Positions 5,601 to 54,619 of a DNA stretch of 64,000 nt are shown one piece after another. The stretch is from the NCBI GenBank assembly GCA_947179485.1, contig OX359245.1, positions 27,329,067 to 27,393,066 on the forward strand, in the 5' to 3' direction. Both the position numbers and the translations under genes were made by a program. The DNA is from Allacma fusca (taxonomy: Eukaryota > Arthropoda > Collembola > Symphypleona > Sminthuridae). The notes beneath the pieces were generated by a model. That model was not told where the DNA came from. It worked only from the letters and a program-made list of their open reading frames with translations, and searched no databases. How positions within the stretch are numbered: the stretch's first letter is position 1; each line of letters begins with the position of its first letter.

Positions 5601-6431
5601 GATCTCCGTAATTTCCTTCGCATCGGCAAATAAGTCCTTTGGTATCGCCACAATTTTATTCCCACTTAAGTTCAAAATCCTCAGCGCGCGCAAATTTGTT
5701 AGTGCGCGGTCTTGGATATTCGAAATCTCATTTGCTTGTAAATACAGTTCTTGCAAATTTGTCAGGGCTAGGAGGCTTCGGGAAGGCAGGACGATGAGTC
5801 GGTTGGAGGAGACGTCCAAAACACGTAACTGAGTTTTGCATCGGTCCGTCTCGGACTCCTTCTCTTTGAAGCTCAGGTCCGTAATATCTTGCAATCGATT
5901 CAAGCTCACATTTAACACTTCTAAAGACTTGGCAGGACAGAAGAGTTTGTCCGGGAAGGTCCAGATATTGTTGGCGCTTAGGTCGATGCGCTCGAGAGCG
6001 GGCATTTCGTTGAAAACCCCCGATGCAATCTCCAAGCTCAGGGCGGGCCATGCTGTATTGTAAGTCCGAATAGTTAAATTTTTGAGGAGAGTCAACCCTG
6101 CGAAGACTCCGGGGTCCAGACGGGACAATTTACAATGTTCGATGTGGAGCGATGTGAGCCGCGTCAAATGTGCGAGAGACTCGGATTGGAGTGAACTTTG
6201 GTAGAAGATGACATCCGAGCATTGTAAATTCAAGGAGGTGATGGCATCCCCGATGAGCTCACTGAAGTTAGTCTTGTCAAATTCGGAATTGATGGTGCGG
6301 AGGTGACATGAGAGCGAGAGGTCGGAACCTGATTGGCTAATGGACTTGGCGCACTCTTCCGAAAATTTACACTCCGACGATCTTACAAACAAAAAAACCA
6401 GAAGAACCACGAATGCAACTTTATTCTTCAT
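2622..6431 (-). CDS. Toll-like receptor, long Toll (Toll-6/7/8/18w type), single exon
   Basis: Single open frame of 1269 codons for a type I membrane receptor that would bind ligands through extracellular leucine-rich repeats and signal through a cytoplasmic TIR domain. Visible order: signal peptide (about 1-21, hydrophobic core VAFVVLLVFLFV); about 20 LRRs with LxxLxLxxN pattern (about 65-650); LRRCT with CDCNMEW (about 668-732); a Cys-rich LRRNT (about 733-770); about five more LRRs (785-910); a second LRRCT with CDCGY (912-962); one transmembrane segment (983-1005); TIR domain (about 1034-1180) with box 1 YDAYVAYS, box 2 around RLCLHYKDFPVS and the FW of box 3; then a Pro-rich tail of about 85 residues. 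Two LRR blocks split by LRRCT/LRRNT, large size and lack of introns are hallmarks of arthropod long Tolls, which act in development as well as immunity. The exact paralogue is not assignable. Coding DNA is clearly GC-richer than its surroundings. Confidence 0.95.
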   Translation of the reverse strand: MKNKVAFVVLLVFLFVRSSECKFSEECAKSISQSGSDLSLSCHLRTINSEFDKTNFSELIGDAITSLNLQCSDVIFYQSSLQSESLAHLTRLTSLHIEHCKLSRLDPGVFAGLTLLKNLTIRTYNTAWPALSLEIASGVFNEMPALERIDLSANNIWTFPDKLFCPAKSLEVLNVSLNRLQDITDLSFKEKESETDRCKTQLRVLDVSSNRLIVLPSRSLLALTNLQELYLQANEISNIQDRALTNLRALRILNLSGNKIVAIPKDLFADAKEITEIYLQNNSLTSVAPGLFSNLNQLAVLDLSHNLLTSDWMNASGAFRGLIRLVFLRLGYNRLSHLNPEAFADLYSLQILSMEHNTIQVIDGNTFSAMNNLHTLILSHNKLQFIDATALNGLFVLSTLSLDNNAITGIHPAAFHNCSSLKDLNLNGNAFSEIPGALQNLTLLKMVDLGENTIEQLETPRLVGMKDLYGLRLTGNRIVNVSKDALKGLPALKVLNLARNRIQSVEPGSFDNNTNLQAVRLDANYLGDISNLFAQAPNLIWLNISDNHLTWFDYALIPKQLQWLDLHKNGITDLGNYFNTEDLRLSTLDVSFNRISKISAQNVPDSLENLFLNDNLISNVEPHTFYKKVNLSRVDIFANQIETMDLKALQLAPFPQEKPLPEFYIAGNPILCDCNMEWLQRINSLDHLRQHPRVMDLDSVYCKLVYHRDKYFVPLADANAHQFLCSYRTHCFALCHCCEFDACDCQMTCPQNCTCYHDDTWSANIVDCASKDHLTIPQRIPMDSTEIYLDGNVFPELTSHVFIGRKNLKVLYLNNSGIRVVQNNSFSGLKRLEILHLENNYLDALEGYEFEPLESLRELYLQSNALSYIENGTFAGLKNLEVLKLDGNSLTRFSIWSLSGNPYLVEIALGGNPWSCDCGYVAQAAAWIQANKAKLMDASGVNCVLNGRPFSLVYVSSNGTKCAEITALSGAVEAPENSILSSYLPLVAGVMAVCLLLGSVLVALCRKRNSLRIWAVSKCPLQCYQTTLEDDREKLYDAYVAYSVKDEAWVGQVLAAELGAQNITSSGSTENGYRLCLHYKDFPVSAYIADTIVEAVESSRRTIIVLSKNFLQSEWCRFEFKSALHAALRGKKNRLIAVMLGDLPTRDLDPDLRVCLRSATVLNSNDKLFWAKLRCALPEPRLGALVLNRRSNGAMTLPLHGNGSFGGGTLGSPIFPPPPPPAHNGGIMTMTHSNSSNVQLYVPPFPPPNRPPPPFPAPRRPPPPAPLWA

Positions 6432-23508: not shown

Positions 23509-26500
23509 ATTAAAGACTATAAAATTTACACGATTTTTGAAAAAAAAAAAACAATGTCCCTACTTCCAAATCTGGAATGTAAAAATATAATAAAAAAAAA
23601 TAAGTTATCTTTGCCTACGCTCAAGTCCAGACGGGATTTAAATTGAAACTAAATTACAAAGGAACTAGCTCAGTTCAGTTTTAAGGGTTTTAAGAGAAAC
23701 TTTGTTGCTGGAGTTCAATGGAACAGGTTTTATTTCCCGTATTTGTGCCTCATGTATTCTGGGACCAGAAATGTATTTTTGTGCAGTTAGTAATTACAGT
23801 GAGTAAATACGGGTTGAAATATCCTGCATAGTAGAGGAGACTGAGTACCTTTAAAATGCAACGTATATTATAGGATGTTAGGTGGGAATAATGAGACTCA
23901 TTTGGTCCAGGTGAGTTGATATGGATGGGATTTTACATGGGATCTTTTTGGACATTAGCGCAATCAACATGTTTTTTAATCTTAAAAGGAACTTTTCGCA
24001 AGTGCCCCAAGGATATTTCTGGGGAACTTTGTAGAACGCTTAGTATTTAATTACAGGTAGTTGAATTTCAGTGGAGGGTTCCGTTGCTGACGCCTTTTGG
24101 TTAGAGCTGCGCTAGAGCTACTTTTTTTGCAGCATTTGTGCCCATATGCTGCTTGTTCTTAAAGTCTTCCTGTAGGTGACTGTCTTGGGTTTAGGTTAAG
24201 CAAAAAATAATGTATTTCTTAAACCATGCAGTAAGTAAATGCCTTGATACCCACTTGTACAGTTTTTGACATGGAAAAATAATATTTGGCCGAAAGGATT
24301 CACCCCGAAATTTGATAAAGTCTAGTTTTTCGGTCAAGTGACATTTTTTACTGTCCCTCACTCTTTATTTCACTGTGGACGGAAGTTTTAGCGCAAATTT
24401 TGATAAAATTTGGAAAGGATCTGGAAAACATTTATATTTTGTTTCAAATTGAGAGTTTCAAATTGAATCTCGAGAACATATACTCTTGAGATTCAAATCA
24501 AAATACAGCTCCATGTATATGAAAATTTTTGGAGTTTCTTGAAAATAATAATTCTTGGAAATAACATTGAAAATTTCACTTCTAACGTATCCGGGTGTGG
24601 ACATTTGGTGTAGCTCTAAGTAAAAAGTGACAGCATCAGAATGTAACTCTAAAGTCAACAACCTTTACAAATTTAGCTAAGAACTAATAAGTTTCAGAAA
24701 ACTGTTTCTGGGACAGTTGCGAAATGTTCCTTGTTAGTGGCAGGGAAATCTCTCGTGCGGTAATTATAATTATTTCTGTAATGGGAAAATCCTATCCTGG
24801 ACAAGTGCTCGGACAGATTACGGGTAATACTCGAGTAAATGAGTATAGAAACTACCCGGACATACACGAGTTGTACTCGTAAGTATACAGGCAATACTCA
24901 GGTATACTCTGAATTTAGGACAATAAATTGGGTACAGAAATGGGTATACGGTATGGGTAATCATCCAGTGGTAGTTAGGTGGTACTCAATTGATTCGTGT
25001 CACACGTATGTGTATAAAATATTAAAAATTTATAAAATAAATTAAGCCCTGCATCATGAAACCCACTATTCACTTTTGGGTACTTCGAGGATTCCTGTTA
25101 GAATAAATTACTTTAGCTAACACCTGCGAGGCGCGGATCTGGTGAAGTTGCTTTGTAACTATATATACAGACACTCGTGTTAGTGAAATAGCCTTGGGGC
25201 TTCACAACGTTCCCGCTTTCCTTTTCGCTGCATTCTAACACTTCTAATGTTTCCTTTCAGGAATTTAACAAAAAAAAACACGTGAAGATTCACAGGTTTT
25301 ACCGACGGAAGGGGGTGTAGGTAAATTTTTGTCGCATTAAGCGTATAGGTACAGGTAAACCGTGGGTGCGCTAAGGGTCCAAGTAAATTTTAGGTACAAT
25401 AAGGGTGCAGGTTAATTGAGGGTAATTACATTAAGTGTACAGGTAAATTGTGAGGGTATTATGGTTATAGGAAAATATTGGGTACATTAGGTAATGTACA
25501 GGTAAATTGTGAGTGCATTAAGGTTAAAAGAAAATTGTGGGTACATTTGGTAATATACAGGTAAATTGTGAGTGCATTAAGGTTATATGAAAATATTGGG
25601 TACATAAGGTAATGTACAGGTAAATTGTAAGTGCATTAAGGTTATATGAAAATATTGGGTACATTAGGTACTGCACAGGTAAATTGTAAGTGCATTAAGG
25701 TTATATTAAAATAGTGGTTATACATTAGGTACTGTGCAGGTAATTGTGAGTGCATTAAGGTTATATGAAAATATAGGGTACATTATGTAATATACAGGTA
25801 AATTGTGACTTTACTAAGGGTAAGGGTAAAGTGTTTCAACACTACGGTTATAAGTAAAATGTGAGTGCATTAGAATACATTTAAATGCTGCTTACAATAA
25901 GTTTACAGGTAATTTGTAGGTACATTATGAGTGCATTGTTGTACATTGCATTTGGAGATAATGGTACTTCCTTTTAATTTAAAATATTGGCCATGGTACT
26001 GAAAACGTTTGCCGGTTACTCGAGTACGGATTTTGATAATTAAAGGTACATCATTTTGTCCCCCCCGATCTTCGGGCACGGGATATACCGTTTCTGTTCC
26101 CAGCCCTAGCACTTTCCTGGACTGACTCAGATCATGTAATGAGTATGAAAATATTTTATTAATCAGAGCTTTCCAATGTTAGAATTCCTAGTAGGAATTC
26201 ATCTATTCCCGTAAACCGGCTTTGCCATAAATTGTGAATGAGGTTGGAGCAGATATGCAGCTGTAATTTATTACGATAAGTAGTTCAATGTGCATTGATC
26301 ACAATAATGTGGGAGAATAATGTGAGAAATTTTCTTTAACTAGTTTCCCAGGTGATGTTCCTACTGTATTTGGAACGTTGAAGACATTTGTATTAATCTA
26401 AAGTAAAAAATTGTCATTCATGCTTCTATAAGCAGGGACATTATTTCGGGGGATAGGAAACATGCCCAAGAATATTGGCCTCCTTGATAAACGTACCTTT

Positions 26501-26584
26501 GATGTACATCATCAGGATTTACCCATTTAGATGTTGAAGACCTGTGTCAAGTTCTGTGAACTCCTGTGGTTGAAGACAGCGTAT
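23509..26584. other. Intergenic region between ELO copy 1 and the giant LTR element
   Basis: AT-rich, no recognised gene. The proximal part upstream of 23508 should hold the ELO copy 1 promoter, but I see no clear TATA box. The notable content is a 59-bp minisatellite at about 25320-25920. Open frames such as 24458-24661 and 25903-26112 (minus) have no recognisable motif. Confidence 0.6.
25320..25920. repeat. 59-bp minisatellite
   Basis: Tandem array with unit about 59 bp. Each unit has AGGTAAATTGTGAGTGCATT, then AAGGTTATATGAAAATATTG, then GGTACATTAGGTAATGTAC. Around six good copies lie at 25440-25805, with degraded copies on both sides. All copies share orientation. Confidence 0.85.
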
Positions 26585-27169
26585 TGTTACGGATATATTA
26601 TAAATAGGCTACGATAAGCATAAAATACGTCAGCAAATACTTTTCAAGGTTGTAAGCAAAGGCTACGTGACACCAAACGCTGACCAAACATAATTATAAG
26701 AAAAGGAAAGGAAATGATTCAGATTATTTAATACACAATAAGATAAGAAGAGAATAAGATTAGATTAGAGTAAGACACGTAGGATAAGAACAAGTTCCAA
26801 TCTCGACTTCAAGCAAGCAACATCAAGAGGAGCCGCACCTAGAGTCCACTCCCTCCGGGATGAAGCTCAAAAGGTAGCAAGCGGGGCTACGTGAAATCGG
26901 GAGATTTCATGAGAAGAAGAGATTCAGAATTTCATTCTATTTTTAGTGTTAAATGTTCAGTTCACGTTTTGTGTAAATTGTATCGGTTCTAGGAACAATA
27001 ATTGGCCAAAATAAAGTACACATGAACTACACACAGAACTCGATAAGTTCCATTTATTCATGAGTTTCACCAACATCGAAACCATAATTCAGGGGAATGG
27101 AACGCCCGAACCTAGGCTACATTGTCGTTACCCATACAACATCATATACCCGGGTAGCACAACGTAACA
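26585..27169 (+). repeat. 5' LTR (585 bp)
   Basis: Begins TGTTACGG and ends GTAACA, forming a 6-bp terminal inversion. A TATAAATA sequence lies at 26599-26606 and an AATAAA signal at 27010-27015. It aligns with 54034-54619 along its whole length with 10 substitutions and one single-base indel. Confidence 0.97.
27010..27015 (+). terminator. LTR polyadenylation signal AATAAA
   Basis: AATAAA in the 3' half of the 5' LTR. The same site is at 54459-54464 in the 3' LTR, where it would end the element transcript. Confidence 0.6.
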
Positions 27170-27200
27170 TGATGTTTCTGCCAGGCCCTAGGGTTTCGGT

Positions 27201-27219
27201 AGGGACCCGGAGGGTCTTT
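27201..27219 (+). promoter_or_regulatory. GC-rich hairpin just after the 5' LTR
   Basis: GACCC, a GGA loop and GGGTC, extended to an eight-pair stem by one A-U and two G-U pairs. It lies 32 nt after the LTR, in the place where primer-binding or dimerisation structures usually sit. Confidence 0.45.
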
Positions 27220-27838
27220 AGGTCACGGGAGACCAGAGGACGACCCTGTGACAAAGACCGAACTTTGTAGCAAGTCAGGTCGTAGTTTCAAAATTCACGG
27301 GATGGAAGTATGGGGTCCGACACGGAGGAAATGTTCGCATCTCTCTCCAGGGCCACCCGAAACTTCTCGTGAAAGGCAGTTATAACATGCAACAAAATGT
27401 TACCTCAAGAAAGAAAATTGGGAATTATCATCACGCGCGGATTCAAACTCTAAGTCCGAAATCCTATTGCGGCACTATAAAAAGAACTATTTTACGGCCA
27501 GAAATATTATTTTAAGTGACCAGTGAAATTGGGACTCTTTCCACCCGGAAAATTAGGGGAAGAGGACGTCCAATAATGTAATACAATTTTTCTTTAAGGT
27601 TCATGAATTTCATGTTTAGGAGCTCATTATTTTTGTAACGTAGTTACGAGGCGCACTTAAATCTCAGGAGTAATTAACCAGAAGTTAGGTGCAAACCATA
27701 GATTTAAATTAGAAAATTGCGCATATATGTATATGTATTTTGTGGTTTTCAGAGTACATAGTAGGTGTATGTGCATCATAATTTTCACCAAAATTAGCTT
27801 CTTCCAGTAAAAATAAGTCTTCGTCTATCTTTTTAGAC

Positions 27839-27866
27839 GCCTAAAGGGCCGGGCTTGAGTGTAGGC
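27839..27866 (+). promoter_or_regulatory. Leader hairpin 1 of the conserved-loop array
   Basis: Stem GCCT/AGGC (4 bp). Loop AAAGGGCCG - GGCT - TGAGTG with one change in the second block and an extra A. Confidence 0.7.
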
Positions 27867-27901
27867 ATAAACAGTGTCGTATTGTAAAGGGTATTATTCC
27901 G

Positions 27902-27926
27902 GCTGAAGGGCCGGCCTGAGCGCAGT
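27902..27926 (+). promoter_or_regulatory. Leader hairpin 2 of the conserved-loop array
   Basis: Stem GCTG/CAGT (three pairs plus a G-U), with TATTAT/ATAATA as a possible outer stem. Loop AAGGGCCG - GCC - TGAGCG. Confidence 0.75.
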
Positions 27927-27964
27927 ATAATAGTAGCCTTTCTCTTCGTAAATAAGGACAATAA

Positions 27965-27993
27965 TTTCAAAAGGGCCGGATTGAGCGTTGAAA
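27965..27993 (+). promoter_or_regulatory. Leader hairpin 3 of the conserved-loop array
   Basis: Perfect 6-bp stem TTTCAA/TTGAAA. Loop of 17 nt: AAGGGCCG - GAT - TGAGCG. Confidence 0.85.
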
Positions 27994-28229
27994 CTCTTTA
28001 AATCTTCAAATTACTTTTCAAAGTTTCGGGAAACCCCAGGCTAAGGGATAGGAACCCGTAACACAATTCAAATCTTTCAGTCAATTAGGACAAGCTTTTA
28101 TTTATACAAGACTCTCAAAATTCACTTTTCAAGCTTAGTTTAAAGCAAAATATGATCTATTTTTCAGTAAATAACGCAAAAAATAATTTTTCACTCATTT
28201 CTCTCTTTTTTTCGCCTTCTAGTATAAGC

Positions 28230-28260
28230 ACATTTGAAAGGCCGGTCTGAGCGCAAATGT
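28230..28260 (+). promoter_or_regulatory. Leader hairpin 4 of the conserved-loop array
   Basis: Perfect 7-bp stem ACATTTG/CAAATGT, the longest in the array. Loop of 17 nt: AAAGGCCG - GTC - TGAGCG. Confidence 0.88.
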
Positions 28261-28444
28261 CTTTGATATCTTTAACCTTCAAATTTAATTAGGAGCCCAT
28301 GGCTAGTGAGGCTAAAACCCAATTAAAACTCTTTCTCTCAAAATTACTTTCCTTCGTCTGAGGTGTAGTTATACACGGACGAAAAATATGACCTATCTTT
28401 ACCATTTTCAAACATCTCTTTTCTTCTTCACCTTTTTCCATTTC

Positions 28445-28479
28445 TACCAGAAAGGCCGACCGTCATTGAGCGCTGGGTA
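28445..28479 (+). promoter_or_regulatory. Leader hairpin 5 of the conserved-loop array
   Basis: Stem CCAG/CTGG, then one bulged G and TA/TA. Loop of 22 nt: AAAGGCCG - ACCGTCAT - TGAGCG. Confidence 0.75.
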
Positions 28480-28531
28480 ATTAGAAAATAATTTGTCATG
28501 GTTTTGGCAAATATTAGGACTCTAAAGTTAA

Positions 28532-28557
28532 TCCGGAAGGCCGACTGTGAGCACGGA
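28532..28557 (+). promoter_or_regulatory. Leader hairpin 6 of the conserved-loop array
   Basis: Stem TCCG/CGGA. Loop GAAGGCCG - ACTG - TGAGCA, the last base differing from consensus. Confidence 0.7.
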
Positions 28558-28668
28558 GCATATCAGATTTCAGTTAGTCATTTGCAAATCAAAGCCTAAT
28601 TATCTCAGTTAGAGAGCATAGGTAGATCAGATCATCTAAAGATCATAGTATGTAAGGTGAACAAAATT

Positions 28669-28699
28669 TTTCGGAAGGGCCGAATTATAAGCGCCGAGG
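28669..28699 (+). promoter_or_regulatory. Leader hairpin 7 of the conserved-loop array
   Basis: Stem TCGG/CCGA extended by two G-U pairs. Loop of 19 nt: AAGGGCCG - AATTA - TAAGCG, one change from TGAGCG. Confidence 0.72.
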
Positions 28700-28737
28700 T
28701 AATTAGGACAGTTTAATTAAGGTTTCAACAAAACTTA

Positions 28738-28769
28738 GTCCAAAGGGCCGAGGTACATTGAGCGTGGAC
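28738..28769 (+). promoter_or_regulatory. Leader hairpin 8 of the conserved-loop array
   Basis: Perfect 5-bp stem GTCCA/TGGAC. Loop of 22 nt: AAGGGCCG - AGGTACAT - TGAGCG. Confidence 0.83.
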
Positions 28770-28826
28770 ATATTGGCATAGTACATAAGCATACATATAA
28801 GAAAATTCTCATCTACGTAGTTTAGG

Positions 28827-28855
28827 GATTGAAGGGCCAAGACATGAGCGCAATC
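28827..28855 (+). promoter_or_regulatory. Leader hairpin 9 of the conserved-loop array
   Basis: Perfect 5-bp stem GATTG/CAATC. Loop of 19 nt: AAGGGCCA - AGACA - TGAGCG. Confidence 0.83.
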
Positions 28856-29012
28856 ATTGTTGTATATTAGTTTTATTACACGTAGAATCCGAGAGGCTAG
28901 GAAGATTAGGAGGGACCTTATGGTTTAGTAGGGTTCGAGTCATTCCAAGCACGGAGGTGATCGGACGGAGTGCCGACAAAAGTACCGATAAGCCTGTGAC
29001 CTACTAGAGGTA

Positions 29013-29041
29013 ATCGGAGAGGCTATGATTGACGCACCGAT
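29013..29041 (+). promoter_or_regulatory. Leader hairpin 10, degenerate copy
   Basis: Perfect 5-bp stem ATCGG/CCGAT around a 19-nt loop, AGAGGCTA - TGAT - TGACGCA, which keeps AGGC and TGA only. Probably a decayed or divergent member of the array. Confidence 0.45.
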
Positions 29042-29587
29042 ATAGGTATATGTTTGTAATGTGCCCGAGCTAGCGGATAGGTAACAGCAATGACTATTAC
29101 TAGTAAGGAGGTCCATGGGATTTGGATAGGATAACAGGGGACATTCCAAAGCACGGATGTTCACTTTAAAATCTATGTATGCGGTTTCCAGCTATGGCCA
29201 TACATGAGGACTTTCATATTTATTACTTCTTCCATAGATGACTCATGGTTTTGAGTGCATCATAAGATTAGCCATTCTCGAAGGATTATAGGGATAGGAA
29301 TTCAGTAAATTCTGGTGCTTTCAGTTTTTATTGTCTACGTCAGATACAAGCCTTGCTGATGGTAGGATCGGTTCAAGGAAGTTCTTAGGTACGAATTAGG
29401 ACGCGAAACTTATCCATCGAGGTAGAAGGGTAATTAGTAGCGAGGAATACAGTCCTTATTAATTCTGGGAGTTATTACAGGAGTATTTAGGGAAATTTAG
29501 GCAACACCAGCCCGAATGTGAGGAGTGTTGATTGACAATAAGACTGATAATTTAAGGAGTTAGACGCAACTAGCCATTGCCAATAAG

Positions 29588-29745
29588 TAAGTTTAAGTGG
29601 ATTAAGTTTTAAGGGGAGTAAGTTTAAGGACATTAAGTTTTAAGAGGGTTAGGATTTAAGGAGAGTAAGTTTTAAGAAGGTTTAAGTTTTAAAAGGACAC
29701 TAAGTTTTAAGGGGAATAGGTTTAAGGAGTTTAAGTTTAAAGGAT
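29588..29745 (+). repeat. Purine/T-rich repeat array in the leader
   Basis: About nine irregular copies of a 15-20 bp unit built on TAAGTTTTAAGG(A/G)G. It lies between the hairpin array and the first ORF. No coding potential. Confidence 0.7.
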
Positions 29746-30220
29746 GAAGTGTAAAACAGTTAGGTTGTAGTGAAGGTTAAAATTACGAAAGGAATAGGTT
29801 ACAAAAGGAATTAAGATTAGAAAGGTTTAGGTTTTAAGGAAGTTCAGGTGGTAACACCAGGAGGTACTCATTGGAAAGTTAGGATTACAAAAATTAAGTT
29901 TTAAGACAGAGTCACAGCTAAAGTCAGGGACGTTCAGGGATTGAACACTTAGGTTATAAGCATAGAAAATTCTTTTCCAAGTTTTCATCACCAATTGGCA
30001 GAATTAAGTCTAACAACTAGGGTTATATAAGCATAGCCATACAAGGCAAAATTTTAGGAAACGGTTTAAGTTGAAATTTGGCATAAGTTTTAAGAAGGTT
30101 TTCAGGGTTGAAATTGACGAAGGAACTCTCACAACCGTCAAACAAATTCATAAAACCAAACTCTACGAAACGCCTTAGCATTTTTCAGCCCATCAAGAAA
30201 AAGTTAGGACGTTTACAGGT

Positions 30221-30757
30221 ATGGAACCTGAAAAGAACCAACATCCATCAAGAAGGGAACCACCACCTGCGCCTTCAATACCATCTCGAAGGACTACGCG
30301 ATCTTCAGGACCAGTGCCACAGAATGAAACAGGCTTGGAGGAGATCCTCGCCCGTAGGAAAGAGGAGAGGAAAGCAGCGAAAGCCAAAGCTAATACAGCA
30401 ACGGCAGGTGTTGACCTCTCTTCAACATCTACAGCTTCGACATCTACAGTCATGGAAGAATCCGGCAGTACAACCCTGGCATTATCTGCACAAAGTCCAT
30501 CGTTCTCGCAGGCCACGGGGCACGGAGATAATCCTGACAATAATGATGAAAGCATGGATGGGTTCTTGGACACGGTGTCAACACCTGTAACAGGTACGGC
30601 AACCAGTCCTAGACGAACACCAACAGTATCGACAGCGCAAACACCAAAGTTTTCAAAAACAAAGGTGGCGCAAGGACAAAATCTCCATAGACTAGCTATG
30701 CAACGAGAACCGTATCGCAAATATCAGAACCAGTCCACAAGGGATTACAACGCGTAA
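30221..30757 (+). CDS. Leader ORF of the giant element (N-terminal part of Gag?)
   Basis: Open frame of 178 codons from an ATG that follows the leader; Pro/Ser/Thr-rich start (MEPEKNQHPSRREPPPAP), an acidic/basic middle and no recognised domain. It ends at TAA 30755-30757 and overlaps by 62 nt the gag frame, which lies one base ahead (+1) and opens at 30696. The gag frame has no ATG until 32106, so this ORF most simply supplies the start of a fused product, by +1 frameshifting near the GCG-TAA end or through an indel in this copy. A separate small protein is possible. It is not the Ogre-type ORF1 as far as I can judge. Confidence 0.55.
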   Translation: MEPEKNQHPSRREPPPAPSIPSRRTTRSSGPVPQNETGLEEILARRKEERKAAKAKANTATAGVDLSSTSTASTSTVMEESGSTTLALSAQSPSFSQATGHGDNPDNNDESMDGFLDTVSTPVTGTATSPRRTPTVSTAQTPKFSKTKVAQGQNLHRLAMQREPYRKYQNQSTRDYNA

Positions 30758-33700
30758 GAGACTGAGCAACAGCCGTTGCGAGACAGCCACCCACAAGGGT
30801 AGCCCAAGAGCACCCACGACTTCACCCGCAACCAAGACAGGTAATAGGACACCAGCAGGGAGCTCTACGGCACAACCGAAAGTGACCCCGAGGTCCAGTA
30901 ATTCCTGTCACTCGACCCCTACAACATGTGAAAGGGGGCAATCAAGCCGACACAGCAACTCTCACGAGATAACACAGCAAATCAACCCAGTACACATCTC
31001 ACCTACCGGTCAAAACAGACAAGTTTCAACGGAAAATACGCCGAGAAATCGACCAACACAACCCAATCTGCAATTTAGGCCTCAACCCACCCAAGACGAT
31101 TTGGAGACCGCAACTGAGGAGGTCGAGTCCACCCAAATTGGTAATACATCACAGGCTAACGTTAAGAAAGATTTGGCAACAACCAAATTATACGTCAACA
31201 CAGATTCCACCCAGGAAAACAATAACGAGCAACTGGTACACCGAGTTTACCAGTCACCGGGAGGTCGAATCTACGTACACCCACCCGTACACGCTTTGCG
31301 AGCACCGCCACTTGACGTTAGTGAGTCAGCTTTAAGAACATTGGTGCAAGTAGGAAGACAACTAAGGGAACAAAATCCGTCAATAACTATAGCCAACACC
31401 ATCAGAAATTCTGACACATGTACTTACTATCAGGCATTTAGACCCCAAGACAGATTTACCGTCTATCAATCACCGAGAGGCTCGTTATATAACAGCATAC
31501 TCATAGGACGCACAGGTATACACCGCCACATTCTACGAGGTCAAGACATCCTGCAACGAGCAACCAACAACGACAGGACCATCGTAGAAGGTGGAGAGCT
31601 AGTAACAGCACCACAACCACCACCGTCGGAACAAACGTCGAGAAGCGGCGAGTCATACGTCCAAGGTGACACCCTAAGGTCACGGACAGCGACACCTGCA
31701 TCAACAACACGTGCAGCAACGACCTTTGCAGTACCAGCCAGACCAACTGGAAGGTTTATAACCAGGTCAGCCAACCAACCAAAGGCACCGACAGCTCCAG
31801 CTGCCGCCGCCAGGCCAAATTCAGCGGTAGCAGGACCATCTCGAATCACTACAACTCCCACTACAGGTCAAGGTACAGTCAGTTGGCTTGACGACTTACA
31901 ACACGGAGTTAACATTTGGACAGGACCCAGTGGCAGAGTGTACACCAGCGAAAACGAAACAACCGAAGACGAATTAGTACCAAGTAGAATAACAGTAAGG
32001 CAATACGCCAAGATTGCCAGAAAACAAGACAGATCTAGAAACCAGGGAATAGAAAACGAAGCGACTTGGACAGGTCAAGTGAGACGTCTAATTTACTTCA
32101 ATAGAATGGACGGTATAATACAACAAAGGTTTAGACCAACTAGAAATTCTGATTTTGAGGCATTCGCAGCTACAAGAGCAGAACACGAGGAAATTGTTCT
32201 GAGTAGCAATCCCATAGTTACCTTTTGGAGGATACTAGCTCAAAGATCATTAGACCCAAATCAAGTCACTAGCTACATTGCATCCGATTTTAGGCTCTAT
32301 CACAGACACATCAGTCTACCCAACGGCATTCGCAGACAAAGAGTACCACCAGGTTTCTTGGAAAACATCGAGAACGAATACGACCACCAAGAGGCGTTAA
32401 GCAGATTAGTTCACGACCGTAGCGTCGAAATCCTGACTGATACGTCTAGTGAAGAGGAAGTAGAGCGGATCATCCAGAGAGACGCTCCTAGGCGCGAAAA
32501 CGAACAGCATAGCAGTGCACAGTCTAGCGCAGAGACAGAGCACATTTTCATTGGAGTTGACGAAGAGGACTTCATTATTCCAGAAGTACCCGGTCAATTT
32601 ACTATAAGAATCTCTATAGACGACGCCTACGACGCAGCGTTCAGAGCAATTGAAAGAGACGAAGAAATACAAAAGGAAGTCCGATTTGTGGACAATACCG
32701 GAGAAACTCACTTCTTCCCAAGATTCCGACTTCGGGATCTTAGCCCGGAAACTCAAGTTGTACTCACTCAAGTCAGAAGGAAACGCAAACCCTTACGAGC
32801 ACGCCTTCAAATCGGAAATAACCAACCAAGACCACCAGGCCCAGGACCAAGCGGGTCAGGGAGAGGCAACCACTCACAAGGAGCTAACAACAACAACTCC
32901 CACGGTCAACGAACATGCCAACAAAGGTCGAATCCAGGTCGAGGAGGCTCGAAAGGAGGACGACACATCGGAGGCAGACGGAGAGGAAGGAGTGACCCCG
33001 GAAGTTCCGGAGGAAGTAGCTCATCATCCAGCTCCAGTAGTAGCAACCCCAGTAACCCTCACGACTTCGAAGCCTTCGACAACTGGAGGAATAGACAGAT
33101 TGTGAACAGAAACAATATCTTCAATCAGGTCAACGTTAACATCATCAACCCATACGTACCAGTCAACCTAAATCAGGGAATACGTATTGAAGACGTTGCA
33201 GACGAAGAGCAGGTACGAGTAATTCCAAGGAGACATCTGGACGACGACATGACCGCCCTCATGTTTCCCAAAGTAGAATTCAAACCGGGTGTAGATGACC
33301 CAGAGACAGCCTTCGCAACAGCCGAACTCCAGACCAACAGGTTCGGAGGAGATACCATCATAACCAGGATGCAATACGTACAGATCATCTTTGACCCACC
33401 CGTCAGGGATTGGATCAGAAATTGGATTTCCGAACGGAGATTACATGAGGAACAACCATACGACACCATTGACTGGGATGAATTCAGAGAGGAATTTCTA
33501 ATAAGGTATAGTATTACCGACCAAATGATACGTACGCTGATAGAAAAGCGAAAGATGCACACAGATGAAGACCCATGTGCTTACATAGATGCGAAATTAG
33601 CATTAATCAATAGAGTCGACAGATTTATGCCCGAAATGGAGAAAATCAGACTCTTACGTGCAGGATTAACATCTGAATACATAGTCTTCTGCCGAGGATG

Positions 33701-34844
33701 GACCGCAGAGACAGTAGCAGATTTTGTAATCGGAATTAAACAATACGATGAAGATCGAAAAACAGATGGGGCAGAATCCATTGAAACAAGATTTGTCAAA
33801 GTACAAGAAATGTTAGAGAAATTGACCTCCGGAATGAAAGCAGCTCCCACGGATACAACTGTCGTGAAAGTAGCTGCAGTGAGAGAACAACAGGACTATC
33901 GGAGACCTGAAAACAGACCAAATGACCAGCGAGGACGAAGTCCAGGTCAGGGAAACTTCAAAAACTCACGGAATTCCAGTCCAGGTTACAACAACAACAG
34001 TTCCCCGGACAGGGGACGTAACAATCAAGGTTACGACGACCGAAGAAATTACGGAAACCGAGGCAGATCTCCAACACCTGAGAGATTCTACAATAATCAA
34101 GATAGGAGTAGGCCCCAATACAGAAATGATGGCAACAACTCCAACAATCAAGGTTACCCTCAGAGGAACCAAAATTTTGGATCCAGACAAAGTCTAAACC
34201 GACAATACTATAACAACAACCCTAACAACCAGGGTAACAGCCAGTGGAATGATCAACAGATGAACCAAGGGTACAACCAACCCTACAACGGCTATAACAA
34301 CCAAGGGTTTAATCAAAACCAAAGCTTCATACCACCTCAGGGGTTTAATCCAAATCAAGGGTACCCACCACAACAGGGGTATGCACCATTTCAAGGTTAT
34401 GCGCCTACCCAATGGTACGGACCATCTCAGGGATACGTATCACAACAAGGATACGGTCCAGGACCAAATGCAGGGTACACCAACCCTGGCATGCAACAAA
34501 TCCAGGCCAACCCACAAGGTTACCAGAACCAGGGTTATCAGCCCAACAATAACCAAGGAGGTCAACGACCCCAACAATACAACAACAATAACAACAGGAG
34601 TGGAACCAATACCAGAGACCGGAACAGCCAAAGCAATGACAGAAACAACTCCTGGAGGAATCAATCAGACCGCCAGGAACAGTCACAGCCGATACCGGGA
34701 CAATTGGCGCTAGAATCCACCCAGACCGACATAAAATGTTTCGGATGTGGAGAGATGGGCCACCTAAAGAGAAATTGCCCACACAAAAGACAATCTAGCC
34801 CATACCCGTCGGGAAACTCACAGAGGGGGACGCACCCCCAGTAA
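30696..34844 (+). CDS. Gag polyprotein, oversized, with CCHC zinc knuckle
   Basis: About 1382 open codons without a stop. A long Ser/Thr/Arg/Pro-rich N-terminal part contains three copies of a short motif, (Y/W)xxPxGx(I/L/V)Y: YQSPGGRIY, YQSPRGSLY and WTGPSGRVY. Next come an acidic region and a Gly/Ser/Arg-rich linker. The retrotransposon Gag core is encoded at about 33230-33840 (pieces such as DPPVRDWIRNWI and WDEFREEFLIRY). Then follow an Asn/Gln/Gly/Tyr-rich prion-like region with about a dozen QGY/QGF units (about 34000-34600) and one knuckle, CFGCGEMGHLKRNC, near 34737-34778. Gag would form particles and bind RNA. Typical gypsy Gags are 250-500 residues. No in-frame ATG occurs before 32106, so translation should enter from the upstream ORF. 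The end overlaps pol by 46 nt in the -1 frame. Confidence 0.88.
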   Translation, partial: LCNENRIANIRTSPQGITTRKRLSNSRCETATHKGSPRAPTTSPATKTGNRTPAGSSTAQPKVTPRSSNSCHSTPTTCERGQSSRHSNSHEITQQINPVHISPTGQNRQVSTENTPRNRPTQPNLQFRPQPTQDDLETATEEVESTQIGNTSQANVKKDLATTKLYVNTDSTQENNNEQLVHRVYQSPGGRIYVHPPVHALRAPPLDVSESALRTLVQVGRQLREQNPSITIANTIRNSDTCTYYQAFRPQDRFTVYQSPRGSLYNSILIGRTGIHRHILRGQDILQRATNNDRTIVEGGELVTAPQPPPSEQTSRSGESYVQGDTLRSRTATPASTTRAATTFAVPARPTGRFITRSANQPKAPTAPAAAARPNSAVAGPSRITTTPTTGQGTVSWLDDLQHGVNIWTGPSGRVYTSENETTEDELVPSRITVRQYAKIARKQDRSRNQGIENEATWTGQVRRLIYFNRMDGIIQQRFRPTRNSDFEAFAATRAEHEEIVLSSNPIVTFWRILAQRSLDPNQVTSYIASDFRLYHRHISLPNGIRRQRVPPGFLENIENEYDHQEALSRLVHDRSVEILTDTSSEEEVERIIQRDAPRRENEQHSSAQSSAETEHIFIGVDEEDFIIPEVPGQFTIRISIDDAYDAAFRAIERDEEIQKEVRFVDNTGETHFFPRFRLRDLSPETQVVLTQVRRKRKPLRARLQIGNNQPRPPGPGPSGSGRGNHSQGANNNNSHGQRTCQQRSNPGRGGSKGGRHIGGRRRGRSDPGSSGGSSSSSSSSSSNPSNPHDFEAFDNWRNRQIVNRNNIFNQVNVNIINPYVPVNLNQGIRIEDVADEEQVRVIPRRHLDDDMTALMFPKVEFKPGVDDPETAFATAELQTNRFGGDTIITRMQYVQIIFDPPVRDWIRNWISERRLHEEQPYDTIDWDEFREEFLIRYSITDQMIRTLIEKRKMHTDEDPCAYIDAKLALINRVDRFMPEMEKIRLLRAGLTSEYIVFCRGWTAETVADFVIGIKQYDEDRKTDGAESIETRFVKVQEMLEKLTSGMKAAPTDTTVVKVAAVREQQDYRRPENRPNDQRGRSPGQGNFKNSRNSSPGYNNNSSPDRGRNNQGYDDRRNYGNRGRSPTPERFYNNQDRSRPQYRNDGNNSNNQGYPQRNQNFGSRQSLNRQYYNNNPNNQGNSQWNDQQMNQGYNQPYNGYNNQGFNQNQSFIPPQGFNPNQGYPPQQGYAPFQGYAPTQWYGPSQGYVSQQGYGPGPNAGYTNPGMQQIQANPQGYQNQGYQPNNNQGGQRPQQYNNNNNRSGTNTRDRNSQSNDRNNSWRNQSDRQEQSQPIPGQLALESTQTDIKCFGCGEMGHLKRNCPHKRQSSPYPSGNSQRGTHPQ

Positions 34845-34864
34845 TTGAAGATATCCAAGAAAGA

Positions 34865-35872
34865 ATGAATGCAATTATCGCAACTAGAGTAGAAGGTCAG
34901 TCAAAAGACGACGAAGAATTAGAAATTATTGATCTCAACAAATGTCGTTTGTCAAACGGCAACAAGTCAACTTTACAAGTGCAAATTTGCAGTATGATGA
35001 TACCAGCTTTACTAGATTCAGGAGCAACAAGATCCTGTATCCAAAGAAACTTAGTACCAAGATGTGCGGAAATAAAAGAAGTTCCAAGCGCTCTGCGAGT
35101 AGCAGTAGCTAATGCAGAATTGGTAAATCCAATTTGTCTCACCAAATTTTCAATGATAATTGAAGGTGAAAAACTTTTATTCAAAGGTCTAGTGATGGAG
35201 ACACTAGAGCCACGAATTATTATAGGCGAAGATCTTTTGTCACGTTATGGAATAACGTTAGACTATAAAACTCATGAAATACGGAGTGACCGATTTCAAA
35301 CAGTTTCAATGACTAGAGACACCCATTTCTATGTTGGAGAGAAAAAGGCTGACATAGAATTTGTCAGGTCAATTTTTTCATTTCATGAAGTCAAAGGACC
35401 GAAGAACATGATGTGCAGGACTCGAAAAGCAGTCACAATACCAGCCTATGGACACATGAAAGTGCCCATTCAAATTCCAAATCGCATCAAAAAGGATTTT
35501 TATCTACAACCATCAGAAAAACTTTACACCAGCAAGCAACTTTTAGTAGCCGCAGGTGTAGTACCAAATGAAGAACCTTTCGGATATGTATTTAATCCAG
35601 CTCCATGCCCACAGACGATGTATGGACGCACAGCTATAGGTCATGCTGAGGAAAATTTTGATCTCATCAAAATCAAGCGCAATCAATTACGTGATGCTCA
35701 CAAAAGGCTCACACAGGAACAGCTCGATTGTTTCGACGTCAACGAGGAGCTCGATGAAGAAAGAAGAGCCAAGTACCGAGCATTGTGGACAAGATATCCA
35801 GAATGTTTCGCATTTAATAAGGGAGATTTGAAGGAACCAGCGTGGATTGATCCCATTCGGATCCATACGTGA
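34865..35872 (+). pseudogene. pol segment: retropepsin and start of RT linker
   Basis: Open stretch of 335 codons from ATG 34865. It carries the active-site DSGATRS motif and the flap-side IIIGEDLLSRYGI region typical of Ty3/gypsy protease. The frame is open from 34799, so the ATG is probably internal to a Gag-Pol fusion. It ends at TGA 35870-35872, after which the RT N-terminal region (NPPVQAKPFPCSP) continues in the same frame. Confidence 0.85.
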
Positions 35873-36670
35873 AATAATCCACCCGTTCAGGCAAAACCTT
35901 TCCCTTGCTCACCAATGGAGCGACAAAAAGTACGAGAGGAAGTACAAAAGATGTTAGACGCAGACATAATCAAGGAAGTGAACGGACCGTACAGCAGTCC
36001 ATTATTCCTAATCAAAAAGAAAGACGGAACATTCAGATCAGTTGTGGATTACCGAGCGTTAAACAAGACCATCACAGATCAAGTATATCCTTTAGCAAGA
36101 ATAGATGACAAACTTATGCAATTTGGAAAATCTGCAATTTTCGACACTCTTGACATGGAGTCAGGATTCTTTCAATTACTTATACATGAGGATGACCAAG
36201 TCATAACCTCTTTCATCACACAGGATGGATTATATGCTTTCAAACGACTACCTATGGGAGTCAAGATTGCACCGTCAGCTTTTCAGCGGGCAGCAGATCA
36301 AATGCTGGGCTCACTCAAATTCAGAGGAGCCATGGTATATTTAGATGATGTAATTTCTTACGGAATTCATCTTTTCGACAAATTAGCATCACTCGAAGAA
36401 TTGATGTTAAGAGCCAGTAACAAGAATTTTAAGTTCAAACCAAAAAAATGCAAATTCGGATATTTTGAAGTAATTGTTTTAGGATTTAAAGTATCTAGGG
36501 AAGGCACCTGTCCAGATCCTGCAAAGGTGGACGCTATTAAACATGTGCCAGTACCAAAATCTGAAACGGAAGCAAAAAGATTTTTCGGAATATGCAACTT
36601 CTATAGAAAATACATCAAGGACTTTGCAAAGATTGCTAGTCCCATCTCACAATCATGGATTGGAAGTTAG
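35873..36670 (+). pseudogene. pol segment: reverse transcriptase
   Basis: RT fingers and palm with SSPLFLIKKKDGTFR, VVDYRALN, FDTLDMESGFFQL, the LPMG-type motif and YLDDV, so both palm Asp positions are kept. It ends at TAG 36668-36670 in the thumb/connection; the next codons continue toward RNase H in frame. Confidence 0.9.
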
Positions 36671-37384
36671 GGTAAATCCGAAGGACAAAAACGCATAAGA
36701 TGCTTCCAATGGAGTGTAGATGCAACAATTGCCTTCAACGTCCTCAAAAATAAATTAATGACACAGCCAGTTCTCGCACATTTTAACCCAGAACTGGATT
36801 GCATACTTCACACAGATGCATCAATCTCAGGATTAGGATGCTGTGTATTACAAGACGATGGAGGAGAACATCCAATAGGTTATGCTTCAAGGACACTAAT
36901 TCAATCAGAGAAAAATTACTCAGTCACAGAATTAGAACTAGCAGCAGTCGTATATGCAGTTCGCAAATTCAGACAATACCTTTATTTGAGAAATTTTTTA
37001 ATCAGATCAGATCATTTAGCATTGTGCTATTTACGATTACAAAAGGATCCAACCCACAGAATAAGTAAGTTTGTAAATAAACTACAAGAATTTGACTTTC
37101 AAGTCACATACAAGAAAGGAGCATTACACGTGGATGCAGACTTTCTATCAAGAGCTCCATTACCCTACACAAAGGAGGATTTGGAGGATACAGAGGACCG
37201 AGTGATCGAGTTTGAACCAGACCCGGTCAAAGAACATAAAATTGCCTTGGAAGAGCAAAAACAAATCCCTCAGGGGAATATAATGATGCCACCAACAGTG
37301 TGTGCAGCAAGCCTTATGACCAGGGAAAGCTACAAGGGAAAATATTGGACGGATGACGAAAGTCAATCCTCAGACGAAGAGTAA
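36671..37384 (+). pseudogene. pol segment: RNase H
   Basis: Gypsy-type RNase H with HTDASISGLG, GYASRTL, TELELAAVVYAV, IRSDHLALCYL and HVDADFLSRAP. Active-site acidic residues are visible. An acidic tail leads to TAA at 37382-37384. Confidence 0.88.
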
Positions 37385-39080
37385 GTCATAATCCCACAGC
37401 GACAAAATCCATGGTCAGGAAGATTAAAAGGTCAACCCAGACGTAAAGCCAAATCACAAGTGGAAAATTTAGTACTTTAACCGAATTTAGAAGAAACGGA
37501 TTGGGAAAACCATACAATGAGCGTAAAGAGCCGTGTAAATGAAGTAACACACAGCTACTCAGCGCTCAAAGAATGGAAATTATCCGTAGATGACATCATT
37601 ACAATCCACAAATTTCGGAAAGAAGATCCACAGGGAGATGAAAATACCTGGAAATACACTAATGAGTATATCTATGAAAAGAATCTCAAACTAATACAAG
37701 AAATAGAGCTTCACAATGCAACAATAAATGATTTGGATATGAAGGAATTTTTAACACCAAAGAAATCTCAGGACCAAGATGAGAATGTAGATTTCGACAG
37801 AAGTACTACCGCTGACATTGGAATGGGGACTGAGTTGTCTCCTACCCCAAAGTCAACGACAGCAACGACGTCACAAAGTCCAGCCAGCGGGAAGGTTGAC
37901 ATGGATTCACCAAAATCCCTAGGGCAGATGACACGAAGTACAATGTAATTCACAACAATGGATGGGGCAGGTGATGCTGAAACAAAAGCTGTACATCTAC
38001 CACCAGCCATAATTGTAGACTCCGATACGGAAGTCCATGATCAAACATCGAAGAATCAGGAGACAGCGGATCTGGTGAGCCAGGCAGCTGAGACTACAAA
38101 AAACAAGTCCTCAACTTTCTCGCCCACCCATCCCGCCAGTCCTAAAGAGGCCAAGAAATTGGTACTCATGGATGAAGATAGGAACGTCCAAAAGGAATGT
38201 GGTCAATCAACACTGAGACAGGAAAAGCTCAGTGTGGAAAATCACATTCCATCCGGGCACGAGCCCACAGATGAGGAGAAAAGATTTGCATTTGAAGAAA
38301 CTTGGAGGAATCCAACTTCAGCAAAAGGAGATGAATGGAAGCTCAAACAGGAGTCATTTCGCAACTGAAGACATACACTGCACAATCTGCCAGGAAGACT
38401 GATCAAGTTCCTGATGCAGAGAGTCCAGGATATGCTCACAATCCGGATCTTGATACCCCACAGCGGATCAAGGCGATGAAGATTTCCAGAGATGTGGAGG
38501 AATGGATGAAAAATATCCAGGAAAGATCTGCAGTATGTGAGTCGGAGGAATACAAAAACCATCCGCCGTCGCATACGTACATATCCACAGAGAATCCAAA
38601 TAATGAAGATAATTTCTCACTACTGGCAACCACAGTAGAAGAGTTGAGGAAAAACATCCGGGAAGGTGAAATTAAATTCACCGATGGAAGATCATGGAAG
38701 ATTCAACCTCTGAAAGGGCAGAGCGTTGTGACAAGTAAAAAGACGTCACATGCACTGTCTTTCACAGAATGAAGACCAAAGGAATAAAGACGCTCAGAAA
38801 ACTGAGGACATGTCATTAAATAGAGCAATAAAATTTGTTCCAGGAGCTCACGCACTACAGGGGTGCGAAGGGAGCAAAGATACTTCTTCCACACACAAGC
38901 CTGTGTGGAATGGATACTTGAAGATGAGGAGCAAGTTACTATGTTGGAAGAACATAACATGCAGGAGATGCAAAGGGACGATCCATATTGTTTATTCATC
39001 ATGGACAAAATAAAGATGCGGCAGACGTTAAATTGGAAGGACAAAGAGAAGTATAGATAATTGAAGAAGATAATAAATTG
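37385..39080 (+). pseudogene. Unassigned pol block between RNase H and integrase
   Basis: Ty3/gypsy pol normally joins RNase H to integrase by about 100 residues; here the gap is about 565 codons. The pol frame holds an open stretch 37517-37948 with KLSVDDIITIHKF and a Ser/Thr-rich end, then 37958-38368; after that the reading frame changes to 38335-38772, probably back and forth again, and to 38863-39060 where MQRDDPYCLFIMDKIK resembles the usual pre-integrase linker. No catalytic motif is recognised. Several stops and indels interrupt it in this copy. Confidence 0.6.
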
Positions 39081-39082
39081 AT

Positions 39083-40693
39083 GAAGAAGGGATTCTTACT
39101 ATAGTACATAAAGATGGACGTAAGTTATACGTACCCCGAGTACTTAGAAATTTCCTACTATCAAAAGCTCACGATGGGATCCTATGTGCAGGACATTTAG
39201 GATTCCAGACAACTCTTCATAGACTCAACAGAGATTATTTTTGGAGAAAAATGAATGTCTCCGTAGCAAAATATGTCATGTCATGCGAAAGTTGCCAAGC
39301 AGCTAAATCCATGAGAATGAAACCAGCAGGACTACTTCATCCAATACGGATAGAAAACGTAGGAGATGCACTATGTATTGATCTCATTGGACCCATGCAA
39401 ATTAGCATAAAAGGGAATAAGTACATAATAATCGCACAGGATTATGTTTCAAAGTTCGTGATCGCAGAAGCAATTCCAGATAAAACTGCTGACAGGATAG
39501 CAGAATTTTTGCTTCACAAAGTAGTTTTAAAATATGGACTGTTTAAAAACTTGCTGAGTGACTGAGGATCCGAATTCAGAGCGGAAATCACTCAAGCATT
39601 ACTTCGCAGATTAGGCATGAACCATTCTACATCTACAGCATTAAGACATAATAGTGTGGGACAAATAGAAAGAATGGTCCAGACCATAAGCACTATGCTG
39701 AGTCATTATACTCAAAAGGAGCAAGCACTATGGTGCAGTTGTTTACCGTTTCTAATAAATGCTTACAATTACAGTCACCATGATGTGACCAAAGAAACTC
39801 CTTATTTTATGATGTTTAGGAGACAACCCATATATGATTTCAACTTACAACTGTGTTTAAGCAGCGTTGACACAAATTTTATGAGTGCTGAGGAAGCCAC
39901 TACTAGAATAGAAAAAGCTATTGCTAAGATAAGGGAACGTCAGGACTACAGTAAGGATTGGTATGATAGGAAAAGAAGGTTCGTTAAATTCAACATCGGA
40001 GACACAGTGCGAGTCTTTACACCGACCAGGATAGTTGGAAAGAGCGAACGCTTTCTTCACCCTTACAAAGGACCCTTTGTAATCATAGAAGTTTTAGCCA
40101 AAGACAATTATATCATTCAAGACCTTAGGAATTCTAAAAAGAGACAGAAAGTCCATGTGGAGAGGCTTAAGAAGTGCCTCCAGCGAGAACACATAGAGGA
40201 CGAGTATAGTTATGATTTAGATTCCGATATAGTGGAATTGGTGACAAAACGAAATTGGAATAAGTGTGGAAAAGTTACAGTGAGTCTGCCACGGTCAATT
40301 CTCAAGAATTCGACCAGTTCAGATAATAATTCAACTACGAGCAAGAAGGTGACTTTTAAAGTTCAGCCTGCCCAAACTGAAGAAATAATTAGAGAGTTTT
40401 CATCCGAAAATTACTCAGATAGCTCAAGTCACCAAACTCAACCAGTACAACAGAGAGGAGAATTTTGTGACAAAAATTACTCACACTCTCAAATCACCCC
40501 AAGTGAAGGAGGGAAATCAAACCAGGAATCGCATCAACACAAAGATACCACTCAAGGAGGAAAAGGTACAACTAAGCAGTCGAGTACACAATTAAGAAAA
40601 TTTTCGTCAAAAAACTATTCAGATAATCGGGAATTTTTAGATAAGAATTACCCATATTTCACTCGCTCGAAAGTAAATGAACACCCTAAATGA
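39083..40693 (+). pseudogene. pol segment: integrase with C-terminal repeats
   Basis: Zinc-binding region with two His (AHDGILCAGHLG) and CESCQ; catalytic core with CIDLIGP; TGA at 39563-39565 just after LLSD, where related integrases have a sense codon before GSEF; the third acidic residue in GQIERM. The C-terminal GPF domain has KIxxGDTVRVF-like and YKGPFVIIEV segments. The tail carries four spaced copies of a (R/G)(E/K)FxxxNY motif. Pol ends at TGA 40691-40693 and overlaps the next ORF's ATG at 40677. Confidence 0.88.
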
Positions 40694-54033: not shown

Positions 54034-54619
54034 TGTTACGGATATATTATAAATAGGCTAAGATAAGCATAAAATACGTCAGCAAATACTTTGCAAGGTT
54101 GTAAGCAAAGGCTCCATGACACCAAACGCTGACCAAACATAATTATAAGAAAAGGAAAGGAAATGATTCAGATTATTTAATACACAATAAGATAAGAAGA
54201 GAATAAGATTAGATTAGAGTAAGACACTTAGGATAAGAACAAGTTCCAATCTCGACTTCAAGCAAGCAACATCAAGAGGAGCCGCACCTAGAGTCCACTC
54301 CCTCCGGGATGGAGCTCAAAAGGTAGCAAGCGGGGCTACGTGAAATCGGGAGATTTCATGAGAAGAAGAGATTCAGAATTTCATTCTATTTTTAGTGTTA
54401 AATGTTCAGTTCACGTTTTGTGTCAATTGTATCAGTTCTAGGAACAATAATTGGCCAAAATAAAGTACACATGAACTACACACAGAACTCGATAAGTTCC
54501 ATTTATTCATGAGTTTCACCAACATCGAAACCATAATTCAGGGGAATGGAACGCCTGAAACCTAGGCTACATTGTCGTTACACATACAACATCATATACC
54601 CGGGTAGCACAACGTAACA
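54034..54619 (+). repeat. 3' LTR (586 bp)
   Basis: Full-length partner of the 5' LTR with the same TGTTAC and GTAACA ends. Ten substitutions and one inserted A (in the CCTGAAACC region) distinguish them. Followed at once by GTAT, the target duplication. Confidence 0.97.

Follow-up and report, generated by a model that had tools for sequence, protein, structure and literature searches.

By DNA order, the 5′ leader of a giant Ty3-type LTR element of Allacma fusca carries an array of short hairpins with a fixed core and variable complementary arms, which are very likely a real RNA structure, so far unnamed. The support for the structure is covariation, not folding energy. The array probably offers repeated docking sites to a protein involved in handling the element RNA, and the best explanation, to which we give slightly less than an even chance, is that units bound by Gag mark the full-length element RNA for packaging. 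The whole stretch of 64,000 nucleotides that was analysed is referred to as the window.

The host element

The array is enclosed by an LTR element of 28,035 bp (26585–54619). The element has a pair of LTRs ending in TG..CA and is flanked by a target duplication of four bases, GTAT, at 26581–26584 and 54620–54623. The Pfam domains RVP, RVT_1, RT_RNaseH and Integrase_p58_C follow one another in the order PR-RT-RNase H-IN, as in elements of the Ty3/gypsy type. Its features are as follows.

26585..27169, plus strand: 5′ LTR, TGTTAC...GTAACA, 98.1% identical to the 3′ LTR
27170..27185, plus strand: primer-binding-site-like stretch TGATGTTTCTGCCAGG, adjoining the 5′ LTR
27170..30220, plus strand: leader of 3 kb, between the 5′ LTR and an ATG ORF at 30221
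30882..34844, plus strand: gag-like ORF of 1320 aa, one CCHC zinc knuckle near the C terminus
34865..37384, plus strand: pol, split into three ORFs that encode protease, reverse transcriptase and RNase H
39617..40693, plus strand: ORF with an integrase C-terminal domain (Pfam)
54034..54619, plus strand: 3′ LTR, with a polypurine-tract-like purine run, AGAAGAGGAA, just before it

The stretch at 27170–27185 resembles the 3′ end of tRNA-Val, and similar sequence adjoins the LTR in a copy of family B and in a copy of family C (both families are defined below). Basic stretches accompany the zinc knuckle in the gag-like protein. A homologue search with residues 770–980 of Gag found none. A search with RNase H matched 13 proteins with uninformative names, and in IMG/VR the RNase H ORF had no relatives. 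Past the integrase domain, on the plus strand, six ORFs of 200 aa or longer have no Pfam match; three of them are 615, 549 and 365 aa long. Elsewhere in the window, a 59 bp unit forms a tandem array just outside the element (25379–25851), and a Toll-like ORF with leucine-rich repeats and a TIR domain, which points to an animal genome, is found on the minus strand at 2622–6431.

Pairing at the sites of the window

Nine sites with a shared core and mutually complementary flanks had been claimed in an earlier note on this DNA, and all nine are present. Hairpins 1–9 were defined by a common register together with a covariance model and span 27839–28855, inside the 3 kb leader; hairpin 10 has a variant core.

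27839..27866, plus strand: hairpin 1, outer stem GCCTA/TAGGC, loop GGCT
27902..27926, plus strand: hairpin 2, outer stem GCTG/CAGT, loop GCC
27965..27993, plus strand: hairpin 3, outer stem TTTCAA/TTGAAA, loop GAT
28230..28260, plus strand: hairpin 4, outer stem ACATTTG/CAAATGT, loop GTC
28447..28476, plus strand: hairpin 5, outer stem CCAG/CTGG, loop ACCGTCAT
28532..28557, plus strand: hairpin 6, outer stem TCCG/CGGA, loop ACTG, with a G.A instead of an A.G mismatch
28671..28697, plus strand: hairpin 7, outer stem TCGG/CCGA, loop AATTA
28738..28769, plus strand: hairpin 8, outer stem GTCCA/TGGAC, loop AGGTACAT
28827..28855, plus strand: hairpin 9, outer stem GATTG/CAATC, loop AGACA; the family C homologue has GTTGG/CCAAC
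29014..29040, plus strand: hairpin 10, stem TCGG/CCGA, variant core AGAGGCTA...TGACGCA

The register common to the nine sites consists of a stem, one base, ARGGCC, one base, 3–8 bases, TGAGC (or a one-base variant), one base and the second arm of the stem. In this register the first four outer-stem pairs are standard at 36 of 36 positions, compared with 60% when left and right flanks were taken from different sites. The summed stem score was 109.5 against 60.8 (s.d. 9.0) in permutations, and none of 100,000 permutations of the flanks reached the observed value. The outer stem comprises 4–7 pairs at the window sites; beyond the fourth pair several sites are unpaired. For analysis of covariation the nine sites were aligned without gaps, with the loops cut to 3 nt. 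In this alignment 98.6% of cells pair, and 14 cells carry double changes against 3.6 in shuffles and at most four in slid controls. Of the five measures of covariation, two did not rise above the shuffles: pairs with a double change (4 versus 2.6, reached by 80 of 500 shuffles) and further pair types (10 versus 8.7, reached by 146 of 500).

A covariance model built from the nine sites, as the earlier note had proposed, recovered all nine at E < 1e-5 in the 64 kb window; there was one extra match at E = 1.4 and no further hairpin below E = 1. A match of the motif scanner at 6652 (score 24.9; best of six shuffles 18.7) has no counterpart among the covariance-model matches at E ≤ 10 and is probably due to chance.

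Energy models do not favour the hairpins. The outer-stem probability was at most 0.38 in the context of the leader, and none of ten short folds was better than z = −1.25 against its own shuffles. Non-canonical pairs or a bound protein must therefore contribute if the hairpins form, since neither the isolated nor the leader folds are favoured. The weak energetic pairing, the likeness of the site cores and a few flank columns, mostly A/T, that are 0.5–0.6 identical among sites would be in keeping with chance, or with a copied repeat that has palindromic flanks and no RNA structure. Most flank columns past the stem are at background identity, however, and double changes keep the pairing between homologous sites of three families (see below); we regard the absence of structure as scarcely credible. 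That variable but complementary stems reflect selection for RNA structure, as the earlier note had argued, is thus borne out by the 36 standard pairs, the permutations and the double changes between copies.

Searches of Rfam gave no match at the gathering score in the 64 kb; the earlier note, too, did not recognize the motif from any described retroelement. Four matches at E ≤ 10 within 27700–29200 overlap none of the hairpins. In the open-licence papers searched we found no description of the motif or of repeated covarying hairpins in retrotransposons. Small ribozymes have the general look of a small conserved internal loop between variable helices, and the unit shares this look, so that self-cleaving or processing sites in the leader might be considered. 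The Rfam result argues against them, as does the fact that nine cleavage sites would break the genomic RNA apart, and we consider them highly improbable.

Leader copies and architecture of the unit

The copies described here all come from the genome of origin (392.7 Mb, 91 contigs), in which the pattern AARGGCCRN3-8TGAGCG gave 735 matches (408 + 327) compared with 14 (8 + 6) for the reversed pattern. The first 100 of the 735 matches, which come from the 1.16–52.86 Mb part of contig C1, were examined individually. They are distributed over 29 places (the window plus 28 fetched loci), all of them leader copies that BLAST grouped into three families, with 57 of the listed matches in family A, 34 in family B and nine in family C. 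Family A consists of the window and 12 further copies, which are 88–90% identical to the window in the main block and 92–97% identical to one another. The seven copies of family B, one of them partial, have 67–75% identity to the window leader in their main blocks. Family C has nine copies with 87–98% mutual identity; DNA similarity to the window leader was seen in a single copy, over 60 nt, and pol shares 69% identity between one C copy and the window across 2.5 kb. By the scanner, the arrays hold nine hairpins in all 13 family A copies, 11 in five, ten in one and four in the partial copy of family B, and two in all nine copies of family C.

One B copy measures about 31.3 kb and one C copy about 25.0 kb; the LTRs of the bounded C copy are identical over a 714-base alignment. 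Probes placed 3 kb further downstream matched the pol region of the window (34700–38000) in nine of ten cases for family A, five of six for B and five of eight for C; the A and B probes matched only the protease end, and reverse transcriptase was reached in four of the eight C probes. In 75 kb taken from a B element and a C element, no hairpin below E = 1 appeared other than the two of family C. When viral contigs were scanned with the pattern, at least 80 stretches matched; among those listed, 79 held one match and one held two overlapping matches, counts that are uncorrected for chance. A second leader motif, ATTAGGA, was dropped: the window and two other A copies have six each, whereas three B copies have three, two and zero and two C copies have one each.

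At C1:6604600–6625200 two family A leaders (L126 and L127) lie 10 kb apart on one strand. A non-autonomous derivative was considered and rejected, as gag DNA follows both leaders; the upstream copy ends at the counterpart of window position 35415, in the protease region, beside a partial LTR, and looks like a deletion and not a gag-less derivative. Within the gag-like region, about 1.95 kb is present in L157 (after leader L127) and L158 (after leader L126) and lacking at 30709–30719 of the window. These are both of the A copies whose downstream parts were fetched at length, and the difference could be a loss here or a gain there.

In the leader of the window and the 28 fetched loci the scanner detected 204 hairpins, 103 of them distinct; having been trained on the nine window sites, it leans to their letters. 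What the earlier note had described as one conserved loop turns out to be a purine internal loop and a fixed inner helix, in which GCCR pairs with UG-A-GC and the A is bulged; the true apical loop is hypervariable. Each unit thus runs from a variable outer helix, some 4–7 bp long or longer, through the purine internal loop and the fixed inner helix with its bulged A to a free apical loop. The internal loop mostly has AARG on its 5′ side and one purine, G or A, on its 3′ side. On the 5′ side (RARG), the second base is A in all 103 distinct hairpins and the fourth is not G in 14; the purine–purine mismatches are AG in 65, AA in 24, GA in 13 and GG in one. In the inner helix GCCG pairs with TGAGC, with the A bulged, in 87 of the 103. 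Among the other 16, three break one pair and 13 keep all four inner pairs; in these 13 the bulged A is replaced by T or C, the first G-C by G-U, or the last G-U by G-C or A-U. In the covariance-model alignment one inner-helix pair is broken in two of 74 distinct rows. The case for this nearly invariant helix therefore rests on consistent single changes and not on double changes. The conserved inner G-U pair is present in 72 of the 74 rows; it would be A-C on the other strand, and the structured molecule is thus likely to be the sense-strand RNA.

The apical loop has 3–10 nt and is hypervariable in sequence and length at the same site. In 20 of the 24 distinct hairpins whose loop has at least 7 nt, the first loop base is A and the last is T, a pair that would lengthen the helix. 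Within family A, the apical loops of hairpins 1–5 vary between copies (3–8 nt) and the stems are nearly identical; in hairpins 6, 8 and 9 the apical loops change far less.

This architecture bears on a further role put forward in the earlier note, dimerization of the RNA by kissing of the palindromic GGCC, to which kissing of the apical loops may be added. A 4 nt palindrome was found in eight of 14 distinct loops of at least 7 nt (shuffled mean 0.36, P = 0.07). The GCC of GGCC is nevertheless engaged in the inner helix, the first G of the palindrome gives way to another base in 14 of the 103 distinct sites, the apical loops differ at the same site as described, and no conserved palindrome is exposed in an apical loop. 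In the 13 family A copies the number of complementary 4-mers between loops of one copy was zero (shuffled mean 0.5), a weak test as the loops are short. Dimerization by either route is therefore disfavoured and appears very unlikely.

The nine homologous sites were assigned by array order. The comparison omits the B copies L121 and L139 as well as B sites 1 and 2 and C site 1, and it aligns both B site 5 and B site 6 with A site 4. In this set 14 of the 36 stem pairs vary, ten of them with double changes that preserve pairing (one of these from A-U to U-G). Copies lacking complementary stems had been named beforehand as evidence against the structure; pairing is kept, with four of 684 cells unpaired, although these cells are not independent events since the copies within a family are close relatives. 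In one family B site, in L121, the core is kept and the stem is absent. Site 9 reads GATTG/CAATC or GATTC/GAATC and, between the same outer neighbours in family C, GTTGG/CCAAC. Site 6 is TCCG/CGGA in family A versus TCTG/CAGA in B, site 5 is CCAG/CTGG in A versus CCCG/CGGG in B, and site 4 is ACATTTG/CAAATGT versus ACATCTG/CAGATGT in one A copy.

A larger alignment of 74 distinct rows was taken from the best 150 of 198 covariance-model matches. In this alignment 92.0% of cells pair (87.2% in the outer helix), 169 cells carry double changes against 57.8 (s.d. 6.1) in shuffles and at most 65 in slid controls, and the covariation score was 0.546 against 0.184. There was no excess of pairs with a double change (6 versus 6.0, reached by 499 of 500 shuffles) or of further pair types (22 versus 24.0, reached by 492 of 500). 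Between one A and one B leader, identity was 0.87 in the fixed core, 0.84 in the outer stem, 0.64 in the rest of the leader and 0.44 in the apical loop. In the C copy of the same alignment the hairpin cores (36%) are hardly better conserved than the rest (31%), which we attribute to most A sites having no C counterpart.

The tenth, weaker copy claimed in the earlier note exists at 29014–29040 and is kept in family A, where all 27 bases are identical in 13 of 13 copies. Its variant core was missed by both the motif scanner and the covariance model. Two bases are changed in family B (five copies listed of six). In family C (seven copies listed of nine) the core is nearer to the canonical form, with TGAGCG in six of seven, and the arms are weak, pairing over only about three positions. 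When a single copy from each of the three families was aligned, conservation in the leader was highest around hairpin 10, at 28970–29040.

Proposed function and known systems

The outer helices are kept mainly as helices, the apical loops are hardly kept and the fixed letters lie in the core, as expected of a protein site. The internal loop, inner helix and bulge would provide the docking surface, and the outer helix and apical loop would serve as a scaffold. Since every one of the 100 examined matches belongs to a leader of this single lineage of elements, an element-specific partner is likelier than a host-wide one. Gag has been linked to both repression of translation and packaging in Ty1/Ty3 (PMC4974528) and is the first candidate here. 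With its basic stretches and CCHC knuckle, the element's own Gag may bind several units together; full-length element RNA so bound would be told apart from host RNA, withdrawn from translation and then packaged, or the binding might act as a switch from translation to packaging. Among the roles proposed in the earlier note, candidate packaging sites read by Gag are the most plausible. Family C, which has two canonical hairpins and the weak tenth, counts against packaging in that a large array is evidently not required.

Control of translation by a host or element RNA-binding protein that sits on the leader hairpins and represses or directs gag translation is improbable in our view. The array does lie in the leader upstream of gag; the hairpins are weak by energy and so would probably not block scanning by themselves. 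A host-wide motif is unlikely given where the examined matches lie, although the binder might still be a host protein. ATG is below the mononucleotide expectation in the hairpin span, yet this depletion, considered as a sign of ribosome scanning, was rejected because dinucleotide shuffles showed it to lack significance both in the window and in seven of eight copies (P = 0.10–0.58; L121, P = 0.013).

We judge equally improbable an export system like Rev/RRE of HIV, in which an arginine-rich protein of the element would load onto the repeated purine loops and export the long unspliced RNA. In stem IIB of the RRE the groove is widened by a bulged base together with G-A and G-G pairs, and the RRE gathers several molecules of Rev (PMC4488727). 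The units described here have purine–purine mismatches and a bulged A flanking a fixed helix, a fit by sequence and pairing, and any of the six ORFs without a Pfam match past the integrase domain could be a candidate for such a protein. The likeness to the HIV-1 RRE lies in a purine internal loop with purine–purine mismatches and a bulged base, and would extend to the loading of multiple protein molecules (PMC4488727). The RRE is, however, one compact structure in env, whereas the array consists of separate short hairpins in the 5′ leader, and no Rev homologue was seen by Pfam.

Recognition by Gag for packaging, the reading that we prefer, has its nearest parallel in MMTV, where a purine loop is reported to be a packaging site bound by Gag and the PBS is the other of two Gag sites (PMC8096270). 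The Pr77Gag signal of MMTV has a purine loop held by helices, as do the units described here, and is a packaging signal, as they are proposed to be (PMC8096270). It differs in that here one motif with covarying stems occurs 2–11 times, in Ty3-type elements of 25–31 kb, and Gag is a candidate binder. The yeast elements Ty1/Ty3 have cis-acting sequences at the ends of their RNA, their Gag is tied both to translational repression and to packaging, and their packaging sequences lack a precise definition (PMC4974528); a repeated covarying hairpin is not described in the sections cited. The Burro elements of planarians are also giant Gypsy-like LTR elements, of over 30 kb with their LTRs, and have extra coding domains (PMC6431247); the passages cited do not mention a leader hairpin array.

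The motif, repeated up to 11 times, with covariation across three families and confined to leaders among the 100 examined matches, offers a directly testable recognition site. It would be a candidate in elements of extreme length, at a time when the packaging sequences of Ty1/Ty3 are themselves imprecisely defined in the cited account (PMC4974528), and the 33-position model is a tool for seeking the lineage elsewhere. We give an even chance to the proposal that the hairpins are a new lineage-specific RNA family, in which multivalent two-helix units, built around a fixed bulge and purine internal loop, form the genome-recognition code of a clade of giant (25–31 kb) retroelements and the apical loops are free to diversify. 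Set beside the known systems, a cis signal in the leader is regarded as being of a known kind, and a motif repeated 2–11 times with covarying stems in elements of 25–31 kb is regarded as new.
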